NCBI RefSeq assembly: GCF_016595525.1
Contig: NZ_JAENII010000003.1
Location: 1-64,000 of the forward strand
Reading direction: 5' to 3'
DNA length: 64,000 nt
Source of the DNA: Haloferula rosea
Lineage (GTDB): Bacteria; Verrucomicrobiota; Verrucomicrobiia; Verrucomicrobiales; Akkermansiaceae
Translations under genes and position numbers: made by a program
The notes under the pieces: model-generated
The model's input: the letters and a program-made list of their open reading frames with translations, nothing else
Told to the model about the DNA's origin: nothing
Databases searched by the model: none
Part shown: positions 443 to 25,442 of the stretch, piece by piece
Position numbering within the stretch: position 1 is the stretch's first letter
Layout: each line of letters opens with the position of its first letter

Positions 443-3298
443 TCAAACCCCTTCCTGTAAGGCCCGTAGATGGGACACCGCCGCCTTAGCTAGACCATCC
501 GGATCGTAGCCCCCTTCCAGGATCGAGATCACCCTCCCCTTCGCCCATCTCTCGGCGATGGTCACCACGGCCCGAGTCAGGGTGGCGAAATCCTCGTCGG
601 TCAGGCACAAGTCGCCGAGCGGATCCCCCAAGCGGGCGTCAAAGCCCGCCGAAACCAGCACCAGCGCCGGGCGGAACTTCTCCATCGCCGGCGCGAGTTG
701 ATCCTCGATGCCCGAGAGCATGCGCTCGATCCCGCTTCCCAGCGGCAAGGGCAGGTTCATGTTCGTCCCCATTCCCGGGCCCGCCCCGGTTTCCTCCGCC
801 GCTCCGGAGAACGGGAAAATTCCCGACTGATGCGCGGAAAAGAAGAATACGCTCTCATCAGCAAAGAAGATGTCCTGGGTGCCATTCCCGTGATGCACGT
901 CCCAATCGACGATCAACACCCGGTTCACCCCAAACTCCTCCTGCGCGTGGCGGGCCATGAGCGCGATGTTGTTATAGATGCAGAAGCCCATTCCCCGGTC
1001 AGTCGTCGCATGATGCCCCGGCGGACGAACCGCCACGAAGGCCCGCTCGACCCGCCCTTCCATCACCGCGGCCACGGCCTCAAGGCCAGCCCCGGCCGCC
1101 AACTTCGCCACCTCCTCACTTTCCGCACAGATCGGTGTATCCCCCGTCCGCAGGCGGTCCGCCAGACTCTCGACATCGATGTGGACCAGATCGAGATAGT
1201 GCGCCGCATGGCACCTCAACAATTCCTCCCGACGGATCTCCCGGTTCGGCAAGGGCACCGCGCCAAGCTTCTTCGCCTCCTTCTCAAGCGCGGCGAGCAG
1301 CACCCGATAGCGTTCGGGATTCTCCACCTCGTTCGGCCCGGTCGCATGCCGGAGATACTCTTCGGAACCATGCCAACCGATCGTCACCTTGGCGGACGCG
1401 CTCTTCTTCGAGCTCGGTTTCGCCCCACCCGCTGTCAAACGCAGCACCGTGGCCACCTTCATCCGATAGATCAGTTCGTCGCCATCCGGTGAGCGCTCGG
1501 CCTTGCCACCGAAACGCTCGAACAGCTCACCCATCGGTCGATTCCCCGGCAGCACCTCGGCCCAGAACCCACGGATCCCGCGCCTCTTCGCCACCTTGGC
1601 CAGCTCCCGGAACAAGCGGCTCGCCATCCCCATTCGCCGCGTCTCATCGTGGACCACAAAGGCGATTTCCGCCTCCTCCCCCTCCGCATCCCGGTAGAAC
1701 CGACCCACCGACCGCAGCAACGACTCGCGGCCCACCCCGCGTTCCTCGAAGATCCCCAGCGCCAAATCCACCGACTGATCCACACCGACCAACTTGTAGG
1801 CGGAGTCCGCAGGCATCGAATCGCGCAGGTAGCCATAGCGGTTCCGGATCGTCTCCTCGGAGTGACTGTAGAAGAACTCCTGCAATCGCCGGATGTCCGA
1901 AGCATGCAGCGGCCGCATGAAGAAAGGCCTCGAGTCGTCCCCCAATGAAAGCCGGTGAAACTCCACCCCGCTCTCGGTGTCGCCGGGCTGCAGGCTCGTC
2001 GGAGCGACCGACACGAACTTCGGAATCCACCCGCGCTCGTGCGCCCCGCGCATCAATGCTTCACGGAACTTCGGATGCGCGATCTGGATCATCTCCAATG
2101 CCCGCTCCCGAATGCTCCTGCCGCGCAAACAAGCCACCCCATACTCGGTGATCACATAGTGGACGTCGGTCCTCGCACTCGCGACCACCGAACCTTCACC
2201 CGGGCTGGCCACAATGCGCGAGATCTTCCCGTCCGAACTCGTGGATGGCATCACATGCACCGGACGCCCCCCCGGACTGGCAGCCGCACCACGCACGAAA
2301 TCAATCTGCGCGCCGATGCCCCCATGGAATTCATGGCCGGCCGAATCCCTCACCACCTGCCCGGTGATGTCGATCTGCCGCGCGCCATTCACCGCCACCA
2401 TCTTCTGGTTCATCGCGATGATCCCGGGGTCGTTCACCCATGCGCTGGAACGGAACTCGATCTCGGGATTCTCATGCGTGAAGCGATACAGCTTCCGTGA
2501 CCCCAGAGCATGACTCACCACACTCCGCCCGCTCATGAAATGCTTGCGGCTGTTGTCGACCGCCCCACAGCGCATCAGCTCCATCAGAGACTCGCAGAAC
2601 ATCCCGCTGTGAATCCCCAGGTGCTTGTGGTGTTTCAGCGCCTGGATCGCCACCACCGGCGTCACCCCGATGCCGACCTGCAGCGTGGATCCATCGTCCA
2701 CCAACTCCGCCAGATACACCCCGATCTTCCTCCGCACCTCGTTGCTATGGGCCTTCGGCGCCTCCACCGGAGCCAGATCCCGCTTCAGAAAGTAATCGAT
2801 CTCGCTGACATCCAGCTGCGACTCACCATACGTCCTCGGCACCCGCGCATTCACCTGGGCGACCACCACCCGCGCCGATTTCACCGCCGCCCGCACCACA
2901 TCCACACTCACCCCCAGCGAAACCTTCCCATGCTCGTCCGGCGGACTGACCGACACCAGTGCCACATCGATCGGGAGCACCGTCGAAGTGAACAACTTCG
3001 GCACCTCGGACAGCGAACACGGCGTGTAGTCCGCACGGCCCTCGAGCACCGCCTGCCCGACCTCGGGAGTCAGGAAAAAGGTGTTGGTCCGCAGCACATC
3101 GGCATACTCCGGAGTAACCCACGGCACCTCCCCCAGCGTATGGATGTGCACCAGTTCCACATCCCTCAGGTGGTCCGCCACCGACAGCAATTTCTCGATC
3201 AAGGCACGTGGAACCGACGCCCCCGACCCGATGAATACCCGTGAGCCGGGCCGGATGATCTTCAGCCAAGCGTCTTTCGAGGAACCCAGTTTCTCCAC
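443..3298 (-). CDS. Fusion protein: acetyl-CoA hydrolase/CoA-transferase + GNAT acetyltransferase + HDAC/AcuC-like deacetylase
   Basis: A 951-residue protein with three domains. Residues about 1-440 are an acetyl-CoA hydrolase/4-hydroxybutyrate CoA-transferase fold (N-terminal RPGSRVFIGSGAS, C-terminal GGIGAQIDFVRGA and VITEYGVACLRG). Residues about 450-620 are a GNAT N-acetyltransferase (AEIAFVVHDETRRMGMASRL is the acetyl-CoA loop). Residues about 645-951 are a class II-type histone-deacetylase/AcuC fold with RPPGHHA, DWDVHHGNGTQ, SAGFDA and EGGYD, so the zinc and catalytic residues look intact. In the CoA-transferase part the usual GIHSE(M) glutamate is Gly (GIHSGM), so this half may not be a normal transferase. 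The start is GTG. It is divergent from ackA-pta, which fits a role in acetyl-CoA/acetate balance and reversible lysine acetylation, as with AcuA and AcuC in Bacillus; this role is inferred. Confidence 0.9.
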   Translation of the reverse strand: MEKLGSSKDAWLKIIRPGSRVFIGSGASVPRALIEKLLSVADHLRDVELVHIHTLGEVPWVTPEYADVLRTNTFFLTPEVGQAVLEGRADYTPCSLSEVPKLFTSTVLPIDVALVSVSPPDEHGKVSLGVSVDVVRAAVKSARVVVAQVNARVPRTYGESQLDVSEIDYFLKRDLAPVEAPKAHSNEVRRKIGVYLAELVDDGSTLQVGIGVTPVVAIQALKHHKHLGIHSGMFCESLMELMRCGAVDNSRKHFMSGRSVVSHALGSRKLYRFTHENPEIEFRSSAWVNDPGIIAMNQKMVAVNGARQIDITGQVVRDSAGHEFHGGIGAQIDFVRGAAASPGGRPVHVMPSTSSDGKISRIVASPGEGSVVASARTDVHYVITEYGVACLRGRSIRERALEMIQIAHPKFREALMRGAHERGWIPKFVSVAPTSLQPGDTESGVEFHRLSLGDDSRPFFMRPLHASDIRRLQEFFYSHSEETIRNRYGYLRDSMPADSAYKLVGVDQSVDLALGIFEERGVGRESLLRSVGRFYRDAEGEEAEIAFVVHDETRRMGMASRLFRELAKVAKRRGIRGFWAEVLPGNRPMGELFERFGGKAERSPDGDELIYRMKVATVLRLTAGGAKPSSKKSASAKVTIGWHGSEEYLRHATGPNEVENPERYRVLLAALEKEAKKLGAVPLPNREIRREELLRCHAAHYLDLVHIDVESLADRLRTGDTPICAESEEVAKLAAGAGLEAVAAVMEGRVERAFVAVRPPGHHATTDRGMGFCIYNNIALMARHAQEEFGVNRVLIVDWDVHHGNGTQDIFFADESVFFFSAHQSGIFPFSGAAEETGAGPGMGTNMNLPLPLGSGIERMLSGIEDQLAPAMEKFRPALVLVSAGFDARLGDPLGDLCLTDEDFATLTRAVVTIAERWAKGRVISILEGGYDPDGLAKAAVSHLRALQEGV

Positions 3299-3427: not shown

Positions 3428-4633
3428 ATGGGAATCCTCGTCATCAATTGCGGCAGCTCGTCCGTGAAATTCGCCATCTTCGACGACCTCGATGCCGACC
3501 CGATCGTCCGCGGCAGCGTCGAGCAAGTGGGATCCCCCGCGATCTCGGGCCACTACATCGTGCGGGAGGCCGACCCCGTCCCCATCCGTTTTCCCGGTCA
3601 CCACGATCATGCCGCCGCACTCGCAGCCACCTTCTCAGCCCTCAAGGCCGACCCCCAGCTGCAGGACCTCAGCATCACCGCCGCAGGCCACCGCGTGGTG
3701 CATGGAGGCCAGGCCTTTTCCGGACCCGTCCTCGTCGGCGAATCCGAGATCGAGCGGATCCGACAACTCTCTCCGCTCGCCCCCGTCCACGCGGTGCATA
3801 ATGCCCTCGGCATCGAAGCGGCCATCGCCGCGCTCCCGGGAGTCCCGCAGGTCGCCGTGTTCGATACAGGATTCCACCAGACCATCGCCCCCCATGTCTA
3901 CCGCTACGCCGTTCCTGAGTTCCTCTATCGGGACCACCAGGTCCGCCGCTACGGTTTCCATGGTACTAGCCATCAGTTCGTCGCCGCGGAAGCCTGCCGC
4001 CGCCTCTCCCTGCCGCTCGACTCATCCCGACTCATTTCCGCCCACCTCGGCAATGGATGCAGCGCCACCGCCATCCTCAACGGCCGGTCGGTCGACACCA
4101 CCATGGGCCTCACCCCACTGGAAGGCATGCCGATGGGAACCCGCAGCGGCAACATCGATCCGAACCTCCACAGCTACCTCCACGAGCAGACCGGCATGTC
4201 GCTTCAGGAAATCACCGACCTCCTCAACAAGAAGTCCGGCCTGCTGGGGGTCAGCGGACTCTCGAACGACCTGCGCCTCCTCACCGAGAAGCTCGCCGCA
4301 GGCTGCGAGGCCGCCCAGCTCGCCGTCGACATCTTCTGCTTCCGACTCGCCCGCGAACTCGCCGGCTTGACCGTCGCGCTCCGTGGCATGCCCGATGCCC
4401 TGATTTTCACCGGAGGCATCGGGGAAAATTCCGCCCTCGTGCGTGAGAAGACCCTCGAGCACCTCACCCACTACGGTTTCGAGCTCGATGCCGGGACGAA
4501 CGCCTCCCACGGGGCGTCGACCCAAGGCATCATCACCCGGTCGGACTCCCCGGGCCCTCCGGCCATCGTGGTTCCCACCAACGAAGAACTCGCCATCGCC
4601 CGGGCCACCCGGGAACAGGTCTGCACCCACTGA
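3428..4633 (+). CDS. ackA: Acetate kinase
   Basis: A 401-residue cytoplasmic acetokinase converting acetyl phosphate and ADP to acetate and ATP, or the reverse. The family motifs are complete: N-terminal INCGSSSVKF phosphate-binding segment, GHRVVHGG, DTGFHQTI, HLGNGCSATAI, the signature TTMGLTPLEGMPMGTRSG, and FTGGIGENS near the end. The length is normal for the family. It sits 5 bases ahead of pta, so the two form the classical ackA-pta operon. The start ATG is preceded by a 129-base divergent intergenic region shared with the acetyl-CoA hydrolase-GNAT-HDAC gene, so the two units may be co-regulated. No Shine-Dalgarno sequence is obvious. Confidence 0.97.
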   Translation: MGILVINCGSSSVKFAIFDDLDADPIVRGSVEQVGSPAISGHYIVREADPVPIRFPGHHDHAAALAATFSALKADPQLQDLSITAAGHRVVHGGQAFSGPVLVGESEIERIRQLSPLAPVHAVHNALGIEAAIAALPGVPQVAVFDTGFHQTIAPHVYRYAVPEFLYRDHQVRRYGFHGTSHQFVAAEACRRLSLPLDSSRLISAHLGNGCSATAILNGRSVDTTMGLTPLEGMPMGTRSGNIDPNLHSYLHEQTGMSLQEITDLLNKKSGLLGVSGLSNDLRLLTEKLAAGCEAAQLAVDIFCFRLARELAGLTVALRGMPDALIFTGGIGENSALVREKTLEHLTHYGFELDAGTNASHGASTQGIITRSDSPGPPAIVVPTNEELAIARATREQVCTH

Positions 4634-4638
4634 ATCCC

Positions 4639-6759
4639 ATGCCGCACCACACCTTCCTCACGGTCCCGATCGGCCGCAACGTCGGCCTGACCTCCGTCAG
4701 CGCCGGGCTCGTCCGCGCCCTCGACCGACTCGGTATCCCATTCGGTTTCTTCAAGGCGCTCGGCCAGCCCCATCCAGAGGAAACTTTTGACCGCTCGTCG
4801 GCCTACCTGAACGCCACCACCACACTCACACCGCCGACCCCCATCGACTACCAGATGGTCGTCGCCGCGATGAACACCGACTCGGTGGACGACCTGATGG
4901 AAGAGGTCATCACCCGCTACGAACAACTGCCACCCGGCCAGGAGGCCATCATCGTCGAAGGCCTCGTGCCTACCTCCGACCTGCCCCACGCCCACCGGCT
5001 CAATGTCGCCCTGCGACGCACCCTCAATGCCGAGGTCGTGCTCGTCATGAGACCGGAGAAAAGTTCCTGCTCGGTCATCAGCAACCAACTCCGCGACCTC
5101 TTCGATTCCATCCCCAAGGAATTGTTCGATCGAAAGCCCGGCGTCGTCATCAACCACCTCGACACCCAGCTCCTCGCCGACGAACTCGGCTGTCCCTCGT
5201 GCGACCCTTCCGAACTGCTGCCCGCCTTGCGGAAGTCGCTCGGTCCCGGCTCGGACCGCTTCGACCTGATCGGGCTCGTCCCCTTCCAAGCCGAGCTCAG
5301 CTACACCCGCGTGGTCGATGCCATCGCCGAGCTAAACGGCACCGTCATCTTCCCCGGCAACATGGAACAACGGCGCATCAAGAAGATCAGCCTGTGCGCC
5401 CGCACCGTCGCCAACAGCATCCGGGGGTTCACCTCCGGCACCCTCGTCGTCACCCCCGCGGACCGCAGCGACATCATCGTGGGCGCCGCGCTCGCCGCCA
5501 GCAAATCCATCCAACTTGCCGGCTTGATCATCACCGGTGACACCGAACCGGACGAGAAGCTGCTGGATTACTGCTCGGACGAATTCTCACTCCACGGCGG
5601 CCTGCCCGTCCTCCGCGTCCCGAGTAGTTCGTTCGAGATCTCACGCGCCCTGCACGAACTCAACCCGGAGATCCCGGTCGAGGACGTCGATCGCATCAAT
5701 CTCGTCATGGACACCGTGGCCCGCCACGTGGACTCCGGCTGGATCAGCCAGCGCTGCGCCACCCACGTTGCCAAACGGCTTTCCCCGCCCGCCTTCCGCC
5801 ACCGCATCAGCAAGACGGCACGCGCCAACCAACAGCGCATCGTCCTTCCCGAAGGCGAAGAACCGCGGACCATCGAAGCCGCCGTGCGCTGCGCGGAGCG
5901 CGGCATCGCCGAGTGCCACCTGATCGGGAATCCACGCCAGATCGAGGAACTTGCACGCATCAACGAACTCGAAATCCCGCCCGCGGTGAAAATCATCGAC
6001 CCGGAATCCATCCGCCATCGCTATCTCGCCCCTCTGCTGGAACGCCGGAAACACAAGGGACTCACCGAAGCCAATGCCATCGAAGCCCTGCGCGACAACG
6101 TCACGCTTGGCACCATGATGCTGGCCATGGATGAGGTCGACGGCCTCGTTTCCGGAGCCATCCACAGCACCGCCTCCACCATTCGCCCCGCCCTCCAACT
6201 GATCCGCACCGCACCTCACGCCAAGGTCGTCTCCTCGGTCTTCTTCATGTGCCTGCCGGATCAGGTGCTCGTCTACGGCGACTGCGCCGTGAATCCAGAT
6301 CCCGATGCCGAAACCCTCGCCGACATCGCCATCCAGAGTGCCGCCTCGGCCAAGGCCTTCGGCATCGACCCCATCGTCGCCATGATCAGCTATTCCACCC
6401 TCGGCTCGGGATCAGGCAGTGAGGTCGAAAAAGTCCGTGAGGCCACCGCCATCGCAAGAAAACGCGCCCCCGAACTCATCATCGATGGCCCGTTGCAGTA
6501 CGATGCCGCCAGCAACCGCGAAGTCGCCGCCACCAAGGCCCCCGACTCGGAGGTCGCAGGACGCGCCAATGTCTTCATCTTCCCCGACCTGAACACCGGC
6601 AACACGACCTACAAGGCCGTGCAACGTTCCGCCGGCGTCATCTCCATGGGCCCCATGCTCCAGGGCATGCGCAAGCCCGTCAACGACCTCAGCCGGGGAG
6701 CTTCCGTCGAGGACATCCTCTACACCATCGCGCTCACCGCCGTGCAGGCCCAAGGCTGA
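4639..6759 (+). CDS. pta: Phosphate acetyltransferase (long form with DRTGG domain)
   Basis: A 706-residue enzyme that interconverts acetyl-CoA plus phosphate and acetyl phosphate plus CoA. The N-terminal third is a P-loop-like AAA/dethiobiotin synthetase fold (VPIGRNVGLTSVSAGL). Residues about 220-330 are a DRTGG regulatory domain. The PTA/PTB catalytic domain starts near residue 390 (RIVLPEGEEPRTIEAA) and contains ISYSTLGSGSGSEVEKV, DGPLQYDAA and FPDLNTGNTTYKAVQR. This is the long, regulated architecture seen in Escherichia coli Pta. It follows ackA by only 5 bases, so both are probably translated from one mRNA and form the substrate-level acetate/ATP pathway. Confidence 0.97.
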   Translation: MPHHTFLTVPIGRNVGLTSVSAGLVRALDRLGIPFGFFKALGQPHPEETFDRSSAYLNATTTLTPPTPIDYQMVVAAMNTDSVDDLMEEVITRYEQLPPGQEAIIVEGLVPTSDLPHAHRLNVALRRTLNAEVVLVMRPEKSSCSVISNQLRDLFDSIPKELFDRKPGVVINHLDTQLLADELGCPSCDPSELLPALRKSLGPGSDRFDLIGLVPFQAELSYTRVVDAIAELNGTVIFPGNMEQRRIKKISLCARTVANSIRGFTSGTLVVTPADRSDIIVGAALAASKSIQLAGLIITGDTEPDEKLLDYCSDEFSLHGGLPVLRVPSSSFEISRALHELNPEIPVEDVDRINLVMDTVARHVDSGWISQRCATHVAKRLSPPAFRHRISKTARANQQRIVLPEGEEPRTIEAAVRCAERGIAECHLIGNPRQIEELARINELEIPPAVKIIDPESIRHRYLAPLLERRKHKGLTEANAIEALRDNVTLGTMMLAMDEVDGLVSGAIHSTASTIRPALQLIRTAPHAKVVSSVFFMCLPDQVLVYGDCAVNPDPDAETLADIAIQSAASAKAFGIDPIVAMISYSTLGSGSGSEVEKVREATAIARKRAPELIIDGPLQYDAASNREVAATKAPDSEVAGRANVFIFPDLNTGNTTYKAVQRSAGVISMGPMLQGMRKPVNDLSRGASVEDILYTIALTAVQAQG

Positions 6760-6790
6760 TCGACCACCCCCCCACCGCGTTCGCACCACT

Positions 6791-6810
6791 TTGTCCTCCC
6801 CAAGGAGGAT
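6791..6810 (+). other. Short inverted repeat between pta and the hydrolase gene
   Basis: TCCTCC and GGAGGA are separated by CCAA and lie directly before the promoter-like sequence at 6816. It may be a weak transcription-pausing hairpin after pta; there is no T-tract, so I do not call it a terminator. Confidence 0.3.
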
Positions 6811-6815
6811 GACCT

Positions 6816-6824
6816 TGTTAGCGT
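6816..6824 (+). promoter_or_regulatory. Extended -10 promoter element before the alpha/beta hydrolase
   Basis: TGTTAGCGT fits an extended -10 (TGnTAnnnT). Its last base is 8 bases from the ATG at 6833, so a transcript starting at the usual distance would have almost no leader. The same arrangement recurs at 13506, 23068, 48708 and 59487. No clear -35 is visible. Confidence 0.4.
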
Positions 6825-6832
6825 CGCCTTCG

Positions 6833-8332
6833 ATGAAGAAGACGTTTGCTCAACACTCCGTCACGATGCTCCGCCGGGCATTGGGCTACGGGATCCTCGT
6901 CACGCTCGTGTCCCTGATCGCCATCGCGATCTACGTCCTCAACAACCGCGCCGACCTCCACCTGTGGCACGAGGTCGATCTGGACGAGGAATTCACCACC
7001 AAGTCCGACGTCGACGACTTCTCCGGATATCTCGCGCTAGAAGAACGCCTCTTCGATCAACTCGAAACCGAAGTCTATGCCAAGATGCCGCCCGGTGACG
7101 CCCAGGCCATCAACCGTTTCCAAAAGGGCAGCATGATGGACCCCACCAGCATGGAGACCAATTGGAACCGCACCTTCCAGCTGACCCACGAAAGCCCCAC
7201 CGCCGGCGTCCTGCTCCTCCATGGCATGTCGGACTCCCCCTACAGCCTCCGTCACCTCGGGGAAACCTACCACCAGCAAGGCGCCGACGTCATCGGCCTG
7301 CGCATCCCCGGACACGGAACCGCCCCGAGCGGACTGATCGAGACCACCTGGAAGGACATGTCCGCCGCCGTCCGGCTCGCCGCCACCCAACTGCAGAAAC
7401 AGGTCGGCGACCAACCGATCTACCTCGTCGGCTACTCCAATGGCGGAGCACTCGCCGTGATGTATGCCATCGAGTCCCTTGAGGATGACTCACTCCCACG
7501 CCCCGAGGCCATGGTCCTCCTGTCGCCGGAAATCGGTGTTTCCAAGGCCGCGGCGCTCGCCGTCTGGCAGGGCCGGGTCGGACACTGGCTCGGGCTCGAC
7601 AAGCTCGCGTGGAACTCCATCTCCATGGAATACGACCCCTTCAAATACGGTTCCTTCGCCATCAACGCCGGGGATCAGGCCCACCGCATCACCGCCGAAA
7701 TCGACAAACGGCTCGGCAGCATGTCAGCAGCGGGTGAGCTCGACAACTTCCCGCGCACCCTCGTCTTCCAATCCGCCGTCGATGCCACTGTCTCAGTGCC
7801 CGCCCTCATCTCGCGCCTCTTCAGCCGCCTTCCTCCATCCGGCCACCAGCTCGTCCTCTTCGACATCAACCGGGTCGAACTCATCGAGCACTTGCTGAAA
7901 ACGGATCCCGCCGACCAACTCGCCGACCTCCTCAAGGGCGCCAACCACCCCTTCACCCTCAGTGTGGTCAGCAACACCACCGCCAACGAAGCTCCCACCT
8001 CGCTGGTGCAGATCACCCACCGGCAGTCCGGCGAATCAACCATCTCCATCGAATCCACCGACCTCTCATGGCCCGGCGACACCTTCTCGCTGTCCCACGT
8101 CGCCCTTCCCTTCCCCGAGGATGACGGCCTCTACGGAAGTGGCGATGGCGGCAAGACCCCGACCTTGGGAAACCGCGCCCTTCGCGGCGAACGTGGCACC
8201 CTCCTCATCAGTCCGGGCGAGATGCTTCGCCAGAAATGGAACCCATTCTATCCGTGGTTGGAGAAGCAATGCCTGACCTTCACCGGATTCGGCCCCGGCG
8301 AGACCAATGCACCTGCAGCCGCCCCGGAATAG
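6833..8332 (+). CDS. Membrane-anchored alpha/beta hydrolase (serine esterase/lipase-like)
   Basis: A 499-residue protein with an N-terminal transmembrane or signal segment (residues about 12-35) and an alpha/beta-hydrolase domain from about residue 120. The oxyanion region reads VLLLHGMSDSPYSLR and the nucleophile elbow is GYSNGG, giving Ser as nucleophile. This type resembles serine aminopeptidase S33/monoglyceride lipase-like hydrolases. Substrate is not predictable. The region after residue about 330 is an extra C-terminal part without recognised motifs. In-frame TTG (6791) and ATG (6809) lie upstream, but the ATG at 6833 is chosen because it begins a positively charged signal-anchor (MKKTFAQ) and follows a promoter-like motif. 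It lies downstream of pta in the same direction but probably has its own promoter. Confidence 0.8.
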   Translation: MKKTFAQHSVTMLRRALGYGILVTLVSLIAIAIYVLNNRADLHLWHEVDLDEEFTTKSDVDDFSGYLALEERLFDQLETEVYAKMPPGDAQAINRFQKGSMMDPTSMETNWNRTFQLTHESPTAGVLLLHGMSDSPYSLRHLGETYHQQGADVIGLRIPGHGTAPSGLIETTWKDMSAAVRLAATQLQKQVGDQPIYLVGYSNGGALAVMYAIESLEDDSLPRPEAMVLLSPEIGVSKAAALAVWQGRVGHWLGLDKLAWNSISMEYDPFKYGSFAINAGDQAHRITAEIDKRLGSMSAAGELDNFPRTLVFQSAVDATVSVPALISRLFSRLPPSGHQLVLFDINRVELIEHLLKTDPADQLADLLKGANHPFTLSVVSNTTANEAPTSLVQITHRQSGESTISIESTDLSWPGDTFSLSHVALPFPEDDGLYGSGDGGKTPTLGNRALRGERGTLLISPGEMLRQKWNPFYPWLEKQCLTFTGFGPGETNAPAAAPE

Positions 8333-9724: not shown

Positions 9725-11176
9725 CTACTTGGGCGCGGTCACCGCGTGGGGATCGACTTTCCGGCCCTTGAGACGGTTCACGTATTCCGTCGGGATCCGG
9801 TTCCGTTCATCCCGCTTGTCCAGACCGAACCGGTCCTTCGCCTGCAGGAACGGCACCGGACCGTCCTCGGAAAGGTAATCGTTTTGCTCCTTCATCCACA
9901 GGAACAACCGGTTCTTCAGCTTCTCCTTGATCGCGGCATACTCGGGATCCTGCGCGATATTCCTGAGTTCGTGCGGATCACTCTGGGTGTCGAAGAGCAT
10001 CTCCTCCCGGTGCGTGGGATACCTTGCAGCCCCCTTCTTGAGGAAATAATCCACTTCCCTACCGACCTTCTCTTCGCGCTCCAGACGCTCGAGCGTGTTG
10101 AAATTGTGGATGTAGTGGTAGCGACCGTCATGAATCGAACGCTGGGGAAATACGTGCCTCCCGAGCGTCCCCTGATTGACGGTCACGCCATACACGTAGT
10201 CGTGATGATGAGTCGCCTTTCCTGCCAGCACCGGGAGCAGGCTCTTGCCGTCGAATCCCTGCGGACGATCTCCCGCCAGCTCAATCATCGTCGGCACGAA
10301 GTCCGCGAAACTCACCAGTGCCTTGCTTCGCCCCATCGCCACCTTCCCGGGCCACCGGACCATGAATGCCACATTCAATCCTGAATCGTAGCTCGTGAAC
10401 TTGCCTCGTTCCATGCCGTGGTCATCCGCATAGAAGAAAACCGACTTCTCCCGCTGCCCATGCTTGTCGAGCAGCTTCAGAAGAGCCGCGAGTTCCATCT
10501 CCTTCTGCTCGATGTTCGCGTAGTAGTGGGCCGCGGCCTCCTTCGCCGAATCGCTTTGCTTCGCATACGGAGGCAGTACCACATCCCCCGCCTTGAACCG
10601 CGTCTTCTCCATGTAGGGCGAATGGGGAAACTCGCTCGCCACGATCAGGCAGTAGGGATCAGGACCCGGATCCGCCAGGAAACGATCGATCTCCTCGAGT
10701 GGGATCCAGTGCCTCGACGCACCAGGCTTTTCGACCGGCAGGAAACGATGGGACCATGGGAAGCTCTGGTCAGGGCTGACGTGGGATTTCCCGGCAAGCA
10801 CCACCGTGTAGCCACGCTCCTTGAGCAGCGAGGGCAGCGTCTCAATGCCGGGCCGCACCTTGGTGTGGTTCATGAAGCAGCCATTGCGCAGCGGATAGAG
10901 CCCCGTGTAGAGCATCGACCGACTCGGCGCACAGATGGCCTGTCCCGTGAACGCCTTGTCAAAGACGAGCGATTCCTTGGCAAGGGCCGCCGTCGTCGGA
11001 GTCGGAACCGTCGGATGACCGTAGCTCGTATGATTGAAGCGGCTCTGATCATCCCCGAGGAAGAAGACCACATTGGGGCGCGATCCCTTCATCGGGAAAC
11101 CACCCACAGCGTCCTCCGCCGATAGGGATGACAGGACCACCAACAGGACCAGCTTCGTGAATACCAGATTCTTCAT
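9725..11176 (-). CDS. Secreted sulfatase (type I, formylglycine-dependent)
   Basis: A 483-residue sulfatase with a signal peptide (residues 1-20). The metal-binding start is PNVVFFLGDDQSR and the maturation motif CAPSR lies at residues 82-86, so Cys82 is expected to become formylglycine. FFYADDHGMERGKF is the second Asp/His metal cluster. It resembles heparan/N-sulfoglucosamine sulfohydrolase-like enzymes (S1_8-type), but substrate cannot be assigned. The hydrolysis of sulfate esters from polysaccharide would occur in the periplasm or outside. No maturase (FGE or anSME) is in the window. SD-like GAGG precedes the ATG by 7 bases, unlike many genes here. Confidence 0.92.
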   Translation of the reverse strand: MKNLVFTKLVLLVVLSSLSAEDAVGGFPMKGSRPNVVFFLGDDQSRFNHTSYGHPTVPTPTTAALAKESLVFDKAFTGQAICAPSRSMLYTGLYPLRNGCFMNHTKVRPGIETLPSLLKERGYTVVLAGKSHVSPDQSFPWSHRFLPVEKPGASRHWIPLEEIDRFLADPGPDPYCLIVASEFPHSPYMEKTRFKAGDVVLPPYAKQSDSAKEAAAHYYANIEQKEMELAALLKLLDKHGQREKSVFFYADDHGMERGKFTSYDSGLNVAFMVRWPGKVAMGRSKALVSFADFVPTMIELAGDRPQGFDGKSLLPVLAGKATHHHDYVYGVTVNQGTLGRHVFPQRSIHDGRYHYIHNFNTLERLEREEKVGREVDYFLKKGAARYPTHREEMLFDTQSDPHELRNIAQDPEYAAIKEKLKNRLFLWMKEQNDYLSEDGPVPFLQAKDRFGLDKRDERNRIPTEYVNRLKGRKVDPHAVTAPK

Positions 11177-11216
11177 CGTTTGACCTCACCGGGAGGGGTT
11201 TCATGGAAAGAGGCAA

Positions 11217-11225
11217 AGCTTACCA
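11217..11225 (-). promoter_or_regulatory. Extended -10 element before the sulfatase gene
   Basis: On the minus strand TGGTAAGCT fits TGnTAnnnT. It is 40 bases before the ATG at 11176, leaving room for a leader with a GAGG ribosome-binding site. Confidence 0.35.
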
Positions 11226-11278
11226 AGTGACCATCCGCTGAAAAGTCCCCTAAACCGGGTAGGCGACTCCCTCACCTG

Positions 11279-12157
11279 CTAGAGTTCGCGGTAGGACATC
11301 GAGAAGGTGTCCCCGTCCTCGATCCGACCGCTCTTCAGTCCCTTCATGAACCACCGCATCCGTTGCTCGGACGTTCCGTGGGTGAAGGAATGGGGAACCA
11401 CCCGCCCCTGCATCTTCCGCTGGATCGCATCGTCCCCGATCGCATTGGCGGCACGCATCGCTTCCTCGATGTCTCCGTCCTCCAGATACTTGCGCGAGTG
11501 ATGGGCCCACACTCCGGCCAGATAATCGGCCTGCAGCTCCAGGCGGACGGAATACTCGTTGTAGTCGGGCTGACCCCGCTTTGCCGCCACCTTGTCGGAG
11601 GTTCCCAGTAGCTTCTGCACATGGTGTCCCACCTCATGGGCGATCACGTAGGCTTGGGCAAAATCCCCCGGCGCCTCGAAGGTCTTGGCCAGTTCGTCGT
11701 AGAAACTCAGGTCGATGTAGACCTTCCGATCCGCCGGGCAATAAAACGGCCCCATCTCGGACTGCCCGGTGCCGCATGCCGTCGAAACCTGACCCCGATA
11801 GACCGTCATGCCCGGCTCTTCGTAGCGCAGTCCCACCCGTGCGAACTCCTTGGCCCATACATCCTCCGTATCCCCCAGGACCACACTCACAAACTCGAAT
11901 CTCTCCTGCTCCTCCGGGCTGACCTGAACCGACTGACTCGTCGTCGATCCGCCGCCATCCATCAGCATGCTTGGATCCACCAGCCCCATCTTCCACGCCG
12001 CGAAACCCAGCACCCCGATGATCAACAGCCCCTTGATCCCGAAGGTCCTCCCGATCAGTGCAACCAAGGTGAAAAGGCCACCCCCTCCTCCTCCGGAAGC
12101 ACGACGTCCCCGGGCATCTTCCACATTCGAACTCTTTCTACGACCTTTCCACTCCAT
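11279..12157 (-). CDS. ypfJ: Putative neutral zinc metallopeptidase (YpfJ family)
   Basis: A 292-residue protein of the PF04228 type. A transmembrane helix at residues about 27-52 (GLFTLVALIGRTFGIKGLLI onward) follows a basic, low-complexity N-terminus, so the enzyme domain is outside the membrane. The zinc motif HEVGHH lies in YVIAHEVGHHVQKLLG and a second segment LELQADYLAGVWA supplies the downstream Glu. The conserved ends FSHGTSEQR-like (HGTSEQRMRWFMKGLKSG) also fit. Function in bacteria is poorly known, and substrate is not predictable. It sits alone between sulfatase and cysteine desulfurase genes, all on the minus strand. Confidence 0.9.
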   Translation of the reverse strand: MEWKGRRKSSNVEDARGRRASGGGGGGLFTLVALIGRTFGIKGLLIIGVLGFAAWKMGLVDPSMLMDGGGSTTSQSVQVSPEEQERFEFVSVVLGDTEDVWAKEFARVGLRYEEPGMTVYRGQVSTACGTGQSEMGPFYCPADRKVYIDLSFYDELAKTFEAPGDFAQAYVIAHEVGHHVQKLLGTSDKVAAKRGQPDYNEYSVRLELQADYLAGVWAHHSRKYLEDGDIEEAMRAANAIGDDAIQRKMQGRVVPHSFTHGTSEQRMRWFMKGLKSGRIEDGDTFSMSYREL

Positions 12158-12174
12158 GATGATTCAAATTCAGT

Positions 12175-12183
12175 TGGCTAGCA
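12175..12183 (-). promoter_or_regulatory. Extended -10 element before ypfJ-like gene
   Basis: Minus-strand TGCTAGCCA is a good extended -10 with TG and TA in register. It ends 17 bases before the ATG at 12157, giving a leader of about ten bases. Confidence 0.35.
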
Positions 12184-12240
12184 TTAGCGGAAGCCACGCC
12201 CGCCGACAAGGAACAGATCGCCCCACCCTCTTCATCCACC

Positions 12241-13425
12241 TCACGGCGAATACACCGTCACCGGGCCGGTCCCCCCACCCTGCACCCGCCTCAGTCGCTC
12301 CACCGCGCTGACCACCGCTTCCACCCCGGCGTCGCAGTCGGACTGAGTCGTCAGCTTTGAAAAGCCGAACCGCAGGCTGCTCTTTGCCTTGTCGTCGCTG
12401 AAACCCATCGCCTTCTGCACATGCGACGGCTTCTGCTTTCCCGTCATGCACGCACTCCCGGCCGAACACGCCACACCCCGCTCATCCAGAAGCACCAGCA
12501 GGCCCGCCGCTTCACATCGATCGAAGGACAAGTGCGAGGTCGTCGGCACCCGGTGGATCAAATCCCCATTCACCGTCACCCCCTGCACCCGCTCGACCAA
12601 TGCCGACTCAAATCCATCGCGTAATGCAGCCACCCGCTGCATCGCTTCCTTCTGGTCCTTGAGCGCAAGCTCTGCCGCTTTCCCCAGACCGACGATGGCC
12701 GCGACATTCTCCGTCCCGCTCCGCCGGTCCCCCTCCTGGCCACCCCCGCGCACCATCGGCTCAAACCGACAACCGCGGCGCACATAGAGCGCTCCCACTC
12801 CCTTCGGGCCATGGAACTTGTGACCACTCAGCGAAAGAAAATCGATGTCGAGCCCGCCAACCTCGACCGGCACCTTCCCCACCGCCTGGATCGCATCGGT
12901 GTGGAAGGCCAGACCGTGCTCACGCGCCACCGCCGCCGCGTCCTCCACCGGCTGGATCACTCCGGTCTCGTTGTTCACCCACATCAGGGACACGAAGCCC
13001 CCTCCCTCCGCCGCCTTCTCACAGGCAGCACGGTAGGCCTCCTCATCCAAGCGCCCGCCCGCATCCACCGGCACCCGCACCACCTCGTAGCCCACCTTCT
13101 CGAAGGTCTCGATCGGCTTGAGCACCGCACTGTGCTCGATCTCGGAAGTCACCACCGTCCCGCTCTTCCGGCCCACCAGTCGGGCCAGCCACTTCAGTGC
13201 CATGTTCGTGCTCTCCGTCCCCCCACCCGTGAAAACAAGCTCCTCCGTCGACGCCTCGATCAACGCCGCCACCTGCTCGCGGGCCGACTCGATCGCATCC
13301 CGTGCTTCACGCGCCCCGGCATACGACGCATTCGGGTTGCAGAACCGATCCCGCAGCCACGGCACCATCGCCTCATACACCTCAGGCAGCATCGGAGTCG
13401 TCGCATTCGCATCGAGGTAAATCAC
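12241..13425 (-). CDS. Cysteine desulfurase (NifS/IscS type)
   Basis: A 394-residue PLP-dependent aminotransferase class V enzyme that takes sulfur from cysteine for Fe-S clusters or thiolated cofactors. MIYLDANATTPM is the typical start, TSEIEHSAVLKP carries the active-site His, LSGHKFHGPKG carries the PLP-binding Lys, and the mobile loop with the catalytic Cys is GVACSAGSACMTGKQKPSH. No IscU, IscR or Suf genes are adjacent, so it may be a stand-alone enzyme, for example for tRNA thiolation. It is divergent from the GntR gene (96 bases between starts), which might link their control. Confidence 0.92.
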   Translation of the reverse strand: MIYLDANATTPMLPEVYEAMVPWLRDRFCNPNASYAGAREARDAIESAREQVAALIEASTEELVFTGGGTESTNMALKWLARLVGRKSGTVVTSEIEHSAVLKPIETFEKVGYEVVRVPVDAGGRLDEEAYRAACEKAAEGGGFVSLMWVNNETGVIQPVEDAAAVAREHGLAFHTDAIQAVGKVPVEVGGLDIDFLSLSGHKFHGPKGVGALYVRRGCRFEPMVRGGGQEGDRRSGTENVAAIVGLGKAAELALKDQKEAMQRVAALRDGFESALVERVQGVTVNGDLIHRVPTTSHLSFDRCEAAGLLVLLDERGVACSAGSACMTGKQKPSHVQKAMGFSDDKAKSSLRFGFSKLTTQSDCDAGVEAVVSAVERLRRVQGGGTGPVTVYSP

Positions 13426-13502
13426 GCCGCCATCGTAGGCCGTCCGCCCGCCGCATCAATCGTTTCCGAATGCCCCTCCCATCATTGCGGAATCGAATCC
13501 CG

Positions 13503-13514
13503 TGGTGTTACCCT
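13503..13514 (+). promoter_or_regulatory. GntR/FCD-type operator overlapping an extended -10
   Basis: TGGTGTTACC contains the GGTnnnACC core typical of FadR/FCD-type GntR operators. It overlaps a -10 (TGTTACCCT, 13506-13514) that ends 6 bases before the ATG at 13521. Binding here would block the promoter, so simple autoregulation is likely. Inferred from sequence only. Confidence 0.4.
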
Positions 13515-13520
13515 CCGCTC

Positions 13521-14198
13521 ATGCAACGCCTCAGCGCCCGGATCGCCAGCGAACTCGAAGCCGAGATTCTCGCTGGAAAGATCCCCAAGGAAGAACGATT
13601 GCCGTCCGAGGAAAAGCTGTGCGTCCGCTTCGATGCCAGCCGCACGGTCATCCGCGAGGCCATCCAACAACTCCGCGGCCGCGGGCTCCTCCGCACCCAG
13701 AAGGGCTCCGGCACCTACCTCGCCGACCCCAGCCTGGAATCACTCGGCTCCGCCGTCGAAACCTACTCCATCCTCGTCGAGGAAGCCGACTTCCTCGAAC
13801 TCATCGACTTCCGGATCCTCGTCGAGTCGGAGTGCGCCCGACTCGCCGCCCAGCTCGCCGGCGCCCATGCCATCTCCGACATCCGTCGGGCCCTCGAACA
13901 GATGAAGGCCAGCGAAGGATCACGCCGCCCCTTCAGCAAGGCCGACATCAGCTTCCACATGGCCATCGCCCTCGCCTGCCCGAACCGCATCTACGCCACC
14001 CTGCTCGGCGCACTCGAAAAGCGCTGCATCGACTACGCCCAGACCAACCGCGGACACGACCAATGGTATGGCGAGGTCATCGAGCAGCACGAAGCCATCC
14101 TTGATGCCATCGAGCTCGGTCGCGGAGACCAGGCCGCCGACGCCATGCGCCGCCACCTGCTCAGCTCACGACGCCACTTCGTCGACTTGAAAGAGTAG
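13521..14198 (+). CDS. GntR-family transcriptional regulator (FCD/FadR subfamily)
   Basis: A 225-residue regulator. The N-terminal winged helix-turn-helix is clear (AGKIPKEERLPSEEKLCVRF, then SRTVIREAIQQLRGRGLL and a QKGSGTYLA wing). The C-terminal all-helical FCD ligand domain (residues about 90-225) has the metal-site-like pattern FRILVESECARLAA, DISFHMAIALA and EVIEQHEAILDAI, with His and Asp residues usual for organic-acid-binding FCD members. The reading frame is open 73 codons upstream, but the ATG at 13521 begins the conserved domain and follows a promoter/operator-like site. The effector is probably a small carboxylate or sugar acid; this is a family-level inference. Divergent from the cysteine desulfurase gene. 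Confidence 0.9.
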   Translation: MQRLSARIASELEAEILAGKIPKEERLPSEEKLCVRFDASRTVIREAIQQLRGRGLLRTQKGSGTYLADPSLESLGSAVETYSILVEEADFLELIDFRILVESECARLAAQLAGAHAISDIRRALEQMKASEGSRRPFSKADISFHMAIALACPNRIYATLLGALEKRCIDYAQTNRGHDQWYGEVIEQHEAILDAIELGRGDQAADAMRRHLLSSRRHFVDLKE

Positions 14199-14209
14199 CC
14201 ACCCGCCAC

Positions 14210-14872
14210 TCACACCACCCATAGATCCGCCGCCACCGCTTCACCCAGTTTCAGCGGCTGGCCGGCCACCTCGATCTCGACGATGCCACCCAGCCGGTCA
14301 CAGCCGACCACCTGAAGCTCCGCCCCCGGTCGCAGCCCCGCCTTCTGCAGCCACTGGAGGAATTCCGGCTCATCCCGTGACACCCGGACCAGCCGGCACG
14401 GCCCCGGTTCACGATCCACCATCGGCCGCGATCGATCCTCACGCATCGCCCCCGTCGCATCCGGGATCGGATCACCATGCGGATCATAGGCCGGCCGACC
14501 CAGCATCTCATCAATCCTCTCCACCAATAGGTCGGACAAGGCATGCTCCAACACCTCGGCCTCGTCGTGCACGTGAGCCCAGTCGAGATGCATCACCTCG
14601 ACCAGAAACAGCTCGATCAAGCGGTGGCGACGCAGCACCTGCAGCGCCATCAGCCGCCCCTTGTCCAGCATCTCCACTCCCTTCCGAGGGTGGTAGCGGA
14701 TGAAGGCCTCCTTATCGAGGTGCTTCATCATCGTCGTCACGGTTCCAGGCGTCAGCTCCAGAGCTTCGGCGATCTTCCCGATCGGCACCAGGGCCTGCTC
14801 GTCGGAGTGCTCGGCGATCCCGTAGATCGCCTTCAGGTAGTTCTCGACCGTGCTGCTCGGCATGACGCTCAA
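14210..14872 (-). CDS. DtxR/MntR-family metal-dependent transcriptional regulator
   Basis: A 220-residue protein with an N-terminal winged helix (SSTVENYLKAIYGIAEHSD, then IGKIAEALELTPGTVTTMMKHL), a dimerisation/metal-binding domain containing HLDWAHVHDEAEVLEHALSD with the conserved Glu and His ligands, and a C-terminal FeoA/SH3-like domain (LRPGAELQVVGCDRLGGIVEI). It binds DNA when Mn(II) or Fe(II) is bound and normally represses metal uptake genes. No uptake gene is next to it in the window. A perfect 14-bp palindrome sits directly in front of its start (14882-14895), consistent with autoregulation. Confidence 0.92.
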   Translation of the reverse strand: MSVMPSSTVENYLKAIYGIAEHSDEQALVPIGKIAEALELTPGTVTTMMKHLDKEAFIRYHPRKGVEMLDKGRLMALQVLRRHRLIELFLVEVMHLDWAHVHDEAEVLEHALSDLLVERIDEMLGRPAYDPHGDPIPDATGAMREDRSRPMVDREPGPCRLVRVSRDEPEFLQWLQKAGLRPGAELQVVGCDRLGGIVEIEVAGQPLKLGEAVAADLWVV

Positions 14873-14881
14873 ACCATGCGG

Positions 14882-14895
14882 TTTGATGCATCAAA
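14882..14895. promoter_or_regulatory. Perfect palindrome, candidate DtxR/MntR-type operator
   Basis: TTTGATGCATCAAA is a perfect 14-bp dyad 10 bases upstream of the regulator's ATG and 21 bases downstream of the squalene/phytoene synthase-family stop codon. Size, AT-rich arms and position fit a DtxR/MntR operator for self-control. Confidence 0.5.
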
Positions 14896-14915
14896 GTCCA
14901 GCGGAGATCCGCCGT

Positions 14916-15815
14916 TCACATCCACCACGCCTGCCACAGACACCGGCGCACCGTCGATCGCGATACCTTCACGCCGCCCTCCATCCGTTCCCAATCCGCG
15001 CCGTCCAACAGATCCAGCGTTTCCCTCCCCAGCCGTGCCGGCAATGCCACCGCCACCTTGAGCCGACGCCCCCCCATCGCTGCCGCGTAGCGCTCACCCT
15101 CGGCCATCCACTCACGCGCCGTCGACCGCCACCGCGCCGCCACCGCCATCACCTCGTCGCGATCCCGAGGATCCCGCACCGGCAGATAGCAGCGCCCCTC
15201 CTTCAGGTCACCCGGCAGATCGCGCAGAATGTTCACCAGTTGCAGCCCCTTGCCGAAGCGGTCGCCGACCGCCGCCAATGGATCCGCAGGCTCCCTTGAA
15301 AATCGTTCCCCCAGCGTCTCGAACCCGATCCGGGTCCAGAACACCCCCACACATCCCGCCACCCGATGACAGTAGTCCAACAAGGCCTCATCATCCGGCA
15401 ACACCCCTCCCCCTTCACCGAAACGCTGCACATCCAGACGCTGCCCACCCGTGATCGTGGCCACCACCTCGCGCACCAGCGAGCGCTCCCCCGCAGGCAG
15501 CTCGGCCAACAGCCCGAAAGCCTCATGCAGACGCTCCAACAACCGCTTCTCCCCGTCGTGCCGCTGGCGGGATGAAAACCCACTCAGATCCTCACGCCAT
15601 GCCGCACTTCCACCTTCCATCTCCGCGATGAATCCGTCCAACAGCTCCAGTCGCTCCGCCGCAGGCACCTCCGCCGTGTCCGCCAGCGTGTCACTCGCCC
15701 GTGCCAGCAGGTAGGCCAGACTGACCGATGGACGCATCGGGCCCGGGAGCACCCGCAGCGACAGGTAGAACGAGCGCGACACATCGCGCAACAAAGTGGC
15801 ATCCGGGCTCGCCAT
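14916..15815 (-). CDS. Squalene/phytoene synthase-family protein
   Basis: A 299-residue prenyl-synthase-fold protein of the head-to-head condensing trans-isoprenyl diphosphate synthases. The first Asp-rich region is RASDTLADTAEV and the second is GLQLVNILRDLPGDLKEGRCYLP, both expected to hold Mg-diphosphate. Such enzymes make squalene or phytoene for hopanoids or carotenoids. The ATG at 15815 (MASPDATLL) is preferred because the longer in-frame start at 15854 would overlap the upstream kinase gene by 34 bases. It follows the kinase-TPR gene by 5 bases, so the two are probably cotranscribed. No other terpenoid gene is nearby, so the product is unassigned. Confidence 0.85.
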   Translation of the reverse strand: MASPDATLLRDVSRSFYLSLRVLPGPMRPSVSLAYLLARASDTLADTAEVPAAERLELLDGFIAEMEGGSAAWREDLSGFSSRQRHDGEKRLLERLHEAFGLLAELPAGERSLVREVVATITGGQRLDVQRFGEGGGVLPDDEALLDYCHRVAGCVGVFWTRIGFETLGERFSREPADPLAAVGDRFGKGLQLVNILRDLPGDLKEGRCYLPVRDPRDRDEVMAVAARWRSTAREWMAEGERYAAAMGGRRLKVAVALPARLGRETLDLLDGADWERMEGGVKVSRSTVRRCLWQAWWM

Positions 15816-15820
15816 GCGGT

Positions 15821-18349: not shown

Positions 18350-18482
18350 GGCGGGATCTTAGCGGGGTAAGGACGATCAACAACCCCACAATGAAACCGA
18401 ACGAACCAAAAAATGCTTCACGATGCCTGAAAACAAGGCGATTTGTGACACGTAGCCCTTTGAACCGCCCGTCCCTAGAATC

Positions 18483-19805: not shown

Positions 19806-19942
19806 AACAGGGCCCCCGGAGAGACCTCCGCGCCCACCCGCACCACGCACCCTGAGCGCCGCCACGCCATGCCGGCCCGCCAGCCAGCGACCGCCGACAT
19901 CCCGGCCCAGCCGAAACGCTGACCCAAGCCCACTCACCACCC

Positions 19943-22375: not shown

Positions 22376-22392
22376 GCGCCACCTACTCCACC

Positions 22393-22448
22393 CAAGGGTT
22401 CAGGGCCTGAGAGGTCAGGGCCCAAGCGATGCCAGCATATAGGGAGCG
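22393..22448. repeat. Direct repeat copy 1 (about 56 bp)
   Basis: A 56-bp unit starting CAAGGGTTCAGGG and containing CCAAGCGATGCCAGC recurs 350 bases later at 22744-22799 with roughly four-fifths identity. It marks the start of a repeat cluster in a 702-base gene-free interval. Confidence 0.7.
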
Positions 22449-22464
22449 CGGCTTTCCAAGCCGC
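22448..22464. repeat. REP-like hairpin
   Basis: GCGGCTT TCC AAGCCGC is a perfect 7-bp stem with a 3-base loop, directly after direct repeat copy 1. It belongs to a set of short palindromes in this interval. Confidence 0.6.
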
Positions 22465-22743
22465 TGCAGCTCACACGCCCCCTCATTCCCTTTCCACTTT
22501 CTACTTTCCACTCACCAACCGCAGCGCATGCGGAGCTCTCGTTTCGCGCCCCTTTCGCGGTTCCCTCAACTCTTCAAACCCTTCAATCCAAGGCCCAGCC
22601 CTAGGTGAAACCCGCGCCTAGGAACCCAGGCCCAACGGGCCGACACCCCTCAGCCCAAGGCGCAGCCTTGGGGTAGGACAATCGCCCTAACAATACGGCC
22701 TGAAGGGCCGTGATCCCCAAGCAGCCCGAGACCCCATTCCCAC
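22465..22743. repeat. Cluster of short palindromes (REP/BIME-like) in gene-free DNA
   Basis: Several short dyads occur here: CCTAGG repeated 11 bases apart near 22600-22620, CCCAAGGC with GCCTTGGG around a 3-base loop at 22654-22672, and ACGGCC-TGAAG-GGCCGT near 22700. No ORF has coding character in 22376-23077. The pattern fits REP/BIME-type intergenic elements mobilised by REP transposases, one remnant of which is at 157-440. Inference from structure. Confidence 0.5.
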
Positions 22744-22799
22744 CAAGGGTTCAGGGACTAAGGGATCAGGGGCCAAGCGATGCCAGCGAGTGAGGGAGC
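22744..22799. repeat. Direct repeat copy 2 (about 56 bp)
   Basis: Partner of the unit at 22393-22448, same orientation, with scattered substitutions. Between this and 23068 I see no further structure except a promoter motif. Confidence 0.7.
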
Positions 22800-23067
22800 C
22801 AAACCCGGACCGCGTGACGCCGTCGCGCATCCCCAGGGCAAGCGGAGCTTCCCCCCCACTCTCCACTCCCTCTTCATCCCCCCGCTCAAGTCATCCGAAA
22901 AGCCGGGATATCACTCCCCGACCAGCCCCGCTCCCTGCCGCCGCTCCAACGACCTGATATACCGATTCATCGACCCGATACCCCTTGCCAATTCGATGAA
23001 TCCTCCATCAAACTCCCCCCAATGGGCCACCCGGGATAGCCTGCCCGGATCGCCTACGAATCAATAC

Positions 23068-23076: not shown

Positions 23077-23077
23077 C

Positions 23078-25399: not shown

Positions 25400-25442
25400 T
25401 CGCGTCCGCTATCATCCATTCATCCACCGAATTTTCTCAGGC

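Follow-up and report, generated by a model that had tools for sequence, protein, structure and literature searches.

The gene at 443..3298 on the reverse strand of the 64,000-nucleotide window analysed here (Haloferula rosea, contig NZ_JAENII010000003.1, positions 1 to 64,000) encodes one 951-residue chain in which a coenzyme A (CoA)-transferase-like domain (CoAT), a GNAT acetyltransferase domain and a zinc-dependent histone deacetylase domain (HDAC) follow one another. Judging from its sequence and from comparison with relatives, we consider it probable that this fusion is a reversible lysine-acetylation module in a single chain, with the AMP-forming acetyl-CoA synthetase (Acs) as its most likely main target and the CoAT domain as a sensor. 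The GNAT and HDAC residues are intact and the CoA-transferase residues are lost; among relatives, the same domains recur as two neighbouring genes, and acs co-occurs with them and in part lies close by.

Architecture of the fusion

The reading frame runs without a break through 951 codons (open-frame analysis). The features of the gene are listed below.

443..3298, (-): CoA-transferase-like + GNAT + histone deacetylase fusion, 951 aa; single open reading frame (ORF) with GTG start; Pfam; AlphaFold2
2039..3271, (-): family I (4-hydroxybutyrate-type) CoA-transferase-like domain, residues ~10-420; PF02550/PF13336; matches 3gk7, 2oas, 9vag
2603..2605, (-): Gly232 where the family has its catalytic Glu (HTE to HSG); alignments, 110 rows
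2297..2323, (-): altered active-site loop GGIGAQIDF (family SGxGGQxDF); alignment; residues 319-327 of low pLDDT
1484..1936, (-): GNAT domain, Pat-type, residues ~455-605; Pfam; best PDB matches 4nxy/4u5y, then 4oll/4ava; NF058543 below cut-off
1667..1669, (-): Glu544, candidate general base of the GNAT; alignment; matches AEVAF of chain 4oll (Pat)
1394..1420, (-): flexible linker from GNAT to HDAC; pLDDT <50 at residues 627-635; sequence varies among fused relatives
458..1327, (-): class II type zinc-dependent deacetylase domain, residues 658-947; PF00850, E 3.3e-90; HDAC6/HDAH matches
1010..1015, (-): His762-His763 catalytic pair; 78/78 aligned HDACs
893..901, (-): Asp800-x-His802 zinc ligands; 78/78
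638..640, (-): Asp887 zinc ligand; 78/78
506..508, (-): Tyr931 catalytic tyrosine; 77/78, the exception (L105) running off its contig

Pfam places AcetylCoA_hydro at residues 15-174, AcetylCoA_hyd_C at 266-417, Acetyltransf_1 at 535-597 and Hist_deacetyl (PF00850) at 658-947 (E 3.3e-90). The NCBIfam matches, all weaker than the cut-offs of their models, are to the Pat acetyltransferase of mycobacteria (NF058543) and to related CoA-transferases. The AlphaFold2 model, for which 61 input rows were chosen by hand from the window and the related loci L061-L140, has a mean pLDDT of 91.1 and a pTM of 0.68; pLDDT falls below 50 at residues 319-327 (the CoA-transferase active-site loop), 627-635 (the GNAT-HDAC linker) and 839-843. 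With this model as the Foldseek query, the top PDB matches are 4-hydroxybutyrate-type CoA-transferases (3gk7, 2oas and their kin), followed by bacterial HDAH and HDAC6.

An earlier note, made from the DNA letters of the window, had described three domains in this order in one polypeptide, with intact HDAC zinc residues. The uninterrupted frame and the Pfam order agree with this; the domain search it proposed, now run, gives CoA-transferase/hydrolase, GNAT and deacetylase domains, and H762, H763, D800, H802, D887 and Y931 are all found. Its picture of joined acetylating and deacetylating halves, likened to AcuA and AcuC, also stands.

GNAT and deacetylase domains

The GNAT domain of the window carries the acetyl-CoA loop R-x-x-G-x-A, which reads R/Q/H-x-x-G-x-(A/G/S/T) across the aligned rows, and the column of Glu544 holds Glu in 105 of 110 rows, the remaining five being rows without a GNAT. 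When the GNAT part alone is compared by sequence, the nearest solved structures are 4nxy (E 8e-12) and 4u5y, both labelled 'Acyl-CoA synthetase', which we take to be S. lividans PatA; 4oll, 4orf and 4ava, labelled acetyltransferase Pat or lysine acetyltransferase, come next. The domain therefore has the sequence kinship of the type I/II Pat GNATs (4nxy, E 8e-12), with PF02550/PF13336 as its accessory domain. Pat enzymes acetylate Acs.

The solved structures nearest to the deacetylase are class II HDACs (HDAC6, HDAH). In the window, nothing is missing from the residues expected of a class II lysine deacetylase: the zinc ligands, the His pair and the Tyr are all there. The 78 aligned sequences are fused or operon deacetylases. 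The gatekeeper, Leu894 in the window, is hydrophobic (L, V, I, M or F) in every one of the 78 and never Glu. A gatekeeper Glu marks polyamine deacetylases (HDAC10), so the hydrophobic residue points to lysine over polyamine deacetylation, and an HDAC10-like polyamine deacetylase was rejected on this ground. We infer that both domains are active enzymes.

Fused and two-gene forms among relatives

Relatives were drawn from two sources. The phylum sample comprises 288 genomes of the window's phylum, taken from the named relatives to be Verrucomicrobiota, in which a carrier is a genome whose listed match spans CoA-transferase and GNAT (CoAT-GNAT). The contig loci come from a profile scan with a six-sequence alignment and are the best 80 of 252 relatives by similarity to the full-length fusion. 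Together, 19 phylum-sample loci and these 80 make up 99 related loci, with flanks of up to 10 kb, some shorter. At most three candidates were scored per genome in the phylum sample and in the Glaciecola class sample (229 genomes), so that carriers may be missed.

CoAT-GNAT carriers number 25 of the 288 phylum-sample genomes, and three of them are fused to the HDAC (the window genome G000, G039 and G048). Besides the window, six fused proteins were found: L061, L063, L064 and L065 (Rubritalea marina) among the contig loci, and L003 and L004. In G251 and G178, of the window's genus, and in G215, of the same family, a separate HDAC gene overlaps the end of CoAT-GNAT by 4 bases; the HDAC gene that comes straight after CoAT-GNAT in G194 and G211 is more distant (33% identity). 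Twenty carriers were judged on neighbourhood DNA (incomplete in G206) and five on listed match coordinates alone. Accordingly, in the remaining 17, the absence of an adjacent HDAC was read from neighbourhood DNA in 12 (including G206) and from match coordinates in five; a non-adjacent HDAC lies 2.6 kb downstream in G168 and ~6 kb off in G214.

Among the best 80 contig loci, four are fused, 67 have the HDAC immediately downstream on the same strand, one (L113) has it at 2 kb, five have none in the available sequence and three run off the contig. The directly adjacent two-gene form thus accounts for 67 of 77 evaluable loci (80 minus 3 ending within 1 kb), with a 4-base gene overlap in 21 of the 67 pairs under mechanical start choice. 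By record title the relatives are Verrucomicrobiota, one Geobacteraceae metagenome-assembled genome (MAG) and Gammaproteobacteria, including Glaciecola, Alteromonas, Colwellia, Rheinheimera, Idiomarina, Microbulbifer and others. At E<=1e-60, the Glaciecola class sample gave a CoAT-GNAT/HDAC match in its centre genome alone, and the gene pair is therefore patchy there. The fusion is uncommon; the nearest relatives often have the two-gene form.

CoA-transferase-like domain

The CoAT domain is 37% identical to 3gk7 and 40% to 2oas (Foldseek matches). The catalytic Glu of the 4-hydroxybutyrate CoA-transferase 3GK7 is E238 (PMC11659651), and it aligns with Gly232 of the window protein. Over 110 aligned rows this position holds Glu in 68, Gly in 39 and Asp in three. 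The three Asp rows are Alkalimonas (L069, L079, L087), all of the two-gene form. The 39 Gly232 rows are verrucomicrobial by record title or phylum sample, include fused and unfused members, and form a single clade (SH-aLRT 100) in a maximum-likelihood tree ('quick' method, no bootstrap) of the first 640 residues of 105 of the 110 rows, five CoA-transferase-only rows being left out.

The substitution does not stand alone. At residue 326, Gly replaces Ser in 39/39 Gly232 rows, and Ser is present in 68/71 others; at residue 330 the family Gly occurs in 0/39 (Ala 31, Ser 7, Asn 1) and in 68/71 others. The loop Gln column is kept in 5/39 rows, the window (Gln331) among them. In the GGQxDF loop motif, Asp and Ala matter for the activity of a butyryl/caproyl-CoA transferase (PMC8360832). 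Of the marks of an active family I CoA-transferase, the window thus lacks both the catalytic Glu in HTE/HSE and GGQxDF, which reads GAQIDF. The HDAC is fused in seven of the 39 Gly232-clade members, directly adjacent in 27 and at 2 kb in one; one further member ends at the contig edge, and three have no HDAC in the available sequence.

Nevertheless, the CoAT domain has been conserved to the same degree as the other two: the identities to the window are 70% (CoAT), 72% (GNAT) and 66% (HDAC) in fused relative L061 and 52, 48 and 49% in L065, which argues that the domain still does something. Considering that its catalytic residues are lost while those of GNAT and HDAC are kept, it is probably an acyl-CoA/CoA sensor, by analogy with type I Pat, whose acyl-CoA synthetase domain is dead. 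The name 'acetyl-CoA hydrolase' given to this part in the earlier note is right as to an acyl-CoA-binding family and probably not as to catalysis, the catalytic Glu being replaced by Gly232.

Link to acetyl-CoA synthetase

Acs, called by TIGR02188 at E<=1e-200, is present in 24 of 25 carriers (the exception is G206) and in 91 of 263 non-carriers (Fisher p 9e-10, uncorrected for kinship). Among the contig loci, 20 more carriers were hand-picked, with no control set, and all 20 have it. An acs gene lies within 11 of the 99 loci, a raw count given with no chance expectation; these Acs proteins are 51-55% identical to that of the window genome, all carry PKTRSGK, and their loci span three lineages. 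Downstream of the HDAC, the gene follows at 0.5-0.7 kb in two Microbulbifer and at 3-7 kb in seven Alteromonadaceae; in G214 and G151, and by coordinates also in G216, it is divergent from CoAT-GNAT at a distance of ~2.5 kb. When neighbours were clustered over the 80 contig loci and the window, the largest family shared beyond CoAT-GNAT and HDAC was acs, at nine loci. The window genome has one Acs above the family cut-off (L034), with the motif PKTRSGK. Three features of an acu-type system are found in the window and its genome: a GNAT with its loop and Glu, a linked complete zinc deacetylase, and an Acs with PKTRSGK. We infer that Acs is the target.

Two further observations concern synthetase genes at these loci. 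In Alteromonadaceae, two kinds of regulatory ORF are repeatedly found by acs: LuxR-type response regulators (a cluster of six loci) and hybrid PAS histidine kinases (a cluster of five). One member of each cluster was domain-scanned, the regulator at 21523-22236 of L128 and the kinase at 18679-22167 of L121. The pair is reminiscent of CrbS/CrbR, which controls acs (PMC5436829, PMC5715377). In the Geobacteraceae MAG (L135), an AMP-forming synthetase 28% identical to Acs lies at 12865-14373, convergent to the HDAC gene.

Proposed mechanism

We propose the following. At high acetyl-CoA, the GNAT domain would acetylate the active-site lysine of Acs (in PKTRSGK) and silence it, and the C-terminal class II deacetylase domain would strip the acetyl group and reverse the silencing. 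The CoA-transferase-like domain would bind acyl-CoA or CoA and report its level to the GNAT, the HDAC or both. Joining writer and eraser in one chain would fix their ratio and bring both to the target. In its complete form, with one polypeptide writing and erasing acetylation on the same target and CoA-ester binding to a pseudo-CoA-transferase gauge tipping the balance, this mechanism is put forward tentatively, with somewhat less than even confidence.

Several findings pull the other way. First, Gly232 alone does not prove lost catalysis, because the CoA-transferase ThnP is active with Gly, and the window retains the loop Gln331. Second, the HDAC is fused (3) or adjacent (5) in just 8 of 25 phylum-sample carriers, and adjacent in 2 of the 19 that keep the Glu (G194, G211); the Gly-clade loci L088, L094 and L103 have no HDAC in the available sequence, and the 80-locus set is biased toward loci with an HDAC because it was ranked by similarity to the full-length fusion. 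Third, acs lies 258 kb from the fusion in the window genome, was not found in the sequence around the six other fusions, and an Acs match is missing from 88 of the 99 loci. The co-occurrence with Acs is confounded by kinship, and the products of two other genes in the window genome, a sirtuin and another HDAC-like protein, could deacetylate Acs as well.

Those 88 loci would also suit a broader role, in which the protein is a general regulator of many proteins or acts on a non-Acs substrate, such as other acyl-CoA synthetases or small amines; bacterial GNATs and HDACs can indeed be promiscuous. Set against this are the Pat type of the GNAT, the presence of Acs in 24/25 and 20/20 carriers, and the gatekeeper, which is not the Glu of polyamine deacetylases. 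We regard this role as unlikely, though it deserves to be taken seriously.

It is rather unlikely that the CoAT domain is still an enzyme that hydrolyses acyl-CoA or transfers CoA, intramolecularly or in some altered way, and whose product or substrate feeds the GNAT. Such activity would fit the gammaproteobacterial relatives, which have the same gene pair and keep the Glu (Asp in the three Alkalimonas). It would also fit the retained Gln331, the conservation of CoAT on a par with GNAT and HDAC between the window and the six fused relatives, and the family I enzyme ThnP, which catalyses intramolecular CoA transfer although it too has Gly for the catalytic Glu (PMC11659651). However, the change from Glu to Gly is accompanied by changes at 326 and 330 in 39/39 rows, and the loop Gln column is kept in just five of them, which favours the sensor over the enzyme.

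AckA and Pta as neighbours

The fusion gene is divergent from two genes of acetate metabolism, as the earlier note had it; coordinates and strands agree.

3428..4633, (+): ackA, divergent neighbour; library matches; neighbourhood not conserved
4639..6759, (+): pta, long form; library matches

That note took the encoded AckA and Pta as targets whose acetylation state the fusion would set, a reading that now appears very improbable. In its favour are this arrangement in the window and that of L113, an Akkermansiaceae MAG. There (9983-18348), an ORF of 487 aa on the opposite strand separates CoAT-GNAT from HDAC, and pta-ackA follows, convergent to the HDAC gene. AckA/Pta matches occur in one of the 99 related loci (0/19 in the phylum sample; 1/80 contig loci, L113). 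The other 98 have none, including L061, which is 68% identical and covered for 10 kb on each side, so the synteny comparison that had been suggested finds the linkage conserved in a single relative. At E<=1e-60, ackA is found in 10 of 25 carriers and 178 of 263 non-carriers (Fisher p 0.008, uncorrected for kinship); the 15 carriers in which it was not found include G178, of the same genus, and G215, of the same family. AckA/Pta was therefore rejected as a conserved partner; it is Acs that tracks the carriers, and 1/99 against 11/99 serves as an informal contrast between the two.

Since the first base of the window is also that of its contig (C33), the sequence downstream of the fusion gene is off the contig. 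On the other side, 9725-28363 holds two sulfatases, a DUF1501 protein, a PPC-domain protein and a kinase-domain protein (15821-18349).

Origin of the fused state

In the tree, the window groups with L061 and L064 at SH-aLRT 100, and L003 and L004 sit among two-gene forms, with L107 as sister. The starred branches force at least two changes of the fusion label, and the whole tree needs four. The nesting of L003/L004 means that the fused state changed at least twice; a single origin for all seven fusions is not favoured, and the long-branch L063, L064 and L065 are placed uncertainly.

Two congeneric sample genomes have separate genes with a 4-base overlap, so that one indel could join them. Even so, the idea that two overlapping genes were joined only by faulty assembly or sequencing can practically be dismissed, since six other fused proteins were found, with the two genes usually side by side in unfused relatives, and since fused L061 and L064 (68 and 64% identity, best segment) are different public records that group with the window at SH-aLRT 100. 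Their linkers are just 33 and 20% identical to that of the window; diverged linkers in independent fused records mean that the joined state is old. The frameshift or misassembly feared in the earlier note is contradicted by these records. As for its other reservation, that the fusion might be common and unconnected to ackA-pta, the second half is borne out for both forms, and the first is not, with three fused in 25 carriers.

Significance

If the proposal is true, the fusion would add a further design for the feedback control of acetate activation, beside the existing ones, namely a sensor-GNAT with a sirtuin and AcuA/AcuB/AcuC. A CoA-transferase of family I would then have become an acyl-CoA sensor, by a route parallel to that of the synthetase domain in Pat. 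One soluble protein would allow the writer, eraser and sensor of lysine acetylation to be studied together, and genes that match both the acetyl-CoA hydrolase/transferase and GNAT families would gain a hypothesis of function.

Reversible acetylation of Acs is known; the CoA-transferase accessory domain, and the writer-eraser fusion in a few Verrucomicrobiota, appear to be new. The accessory domains given for bacterial GNATs are acyl-CoA synthetase, cAMP-, amino-acid- and NADP-binding domains and tandem GNATs, and the accessible portion of that classification mentions neither 'CoA-transferase' nor 'acetyl-CoA hydrolase' (PMC8556138). In open-access literature on GNAT/CoA-transferase/HDAC combinations, titles and abstract openings point to none on this architecture. 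For a 2024 survey of bacterial deacylases, 'fused', 'domain architecture' and 'verrucomicrobi' are absent among the matches listed (12 of 16; PMC11532494). The claim of novelty rests on these absences.

Comparison with known systems

The closest functional counterpart is acuABC. In Bacilli, acsA is divergent from acuABC, and AcuA inactivates and AcuC reactivates AcsA (PMC13121692); AcuA and AcuC control AcsA, and acuB and acuC overlap by ATGA (PMC13039410). As in Bacillus, a GNAT and a zinc deacetylase are genetically linked in the window and its relatives, and acs is divergent from CoAT-GNAT in G214, G151 and G216, as acsA is from acu. In contrast to the separate AcuA (GNAT), AcuC (HDAC) and AcuB (regulator), the window has a Pat-type GNAT with a CoA-transferase-like domain in one chain, and its HDAC is class II-like as judged against solved structures rather than against AcuC directly.

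Type I/II Pat proteins (S. enterica Pat, S. lividans PatA) likewise join an impaired acyl-CoA enzyme domain to a GNAT of the same kind, and the dead synthetase domains of type I/II GNATs are thought to sense acetyl-CoA (PMC8556138). In the window, however, a CoA-transferase takes the place of the NDP-forming acyl-CoA synthetase as accessory domain, and the chain also includes a deacetylase. L150 (G457:C2:84000-92000), from one genome of the Glaciecola class sample, has at 3475-7440 (-) a 1013-aa acyl-CoA synthetase with a C-terminal GNAT, the type I Pat architecture, and an HDAC gene 3 bases on. It is the same writer-eraser pairing with the classical accessory domain.

The window shares the fold of the family I/Cat1 CoA-transferases (4-hydroxybutyrate CoA-transferase, 3gk7) and differs from them in having Gly for Glu and an altered loop; ThnP shares this Gly, yet is active (PMC11659651). 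With class II HDACs and bacterial HDAH (5g0y, HDAC6) it has in common the fold, zinc ligands, Tyr and hydrophobic gatekeeper; here, however, they belong to the C-terminal domain of a GNAT protein. Finally, AceK is a bifunctional isocitrate dehydrogenase kinase/phosphatase, and the proposed writer, eraser and gauge would be the lysine-acetylation counterpart of such a modifying and demodifying enzyme.

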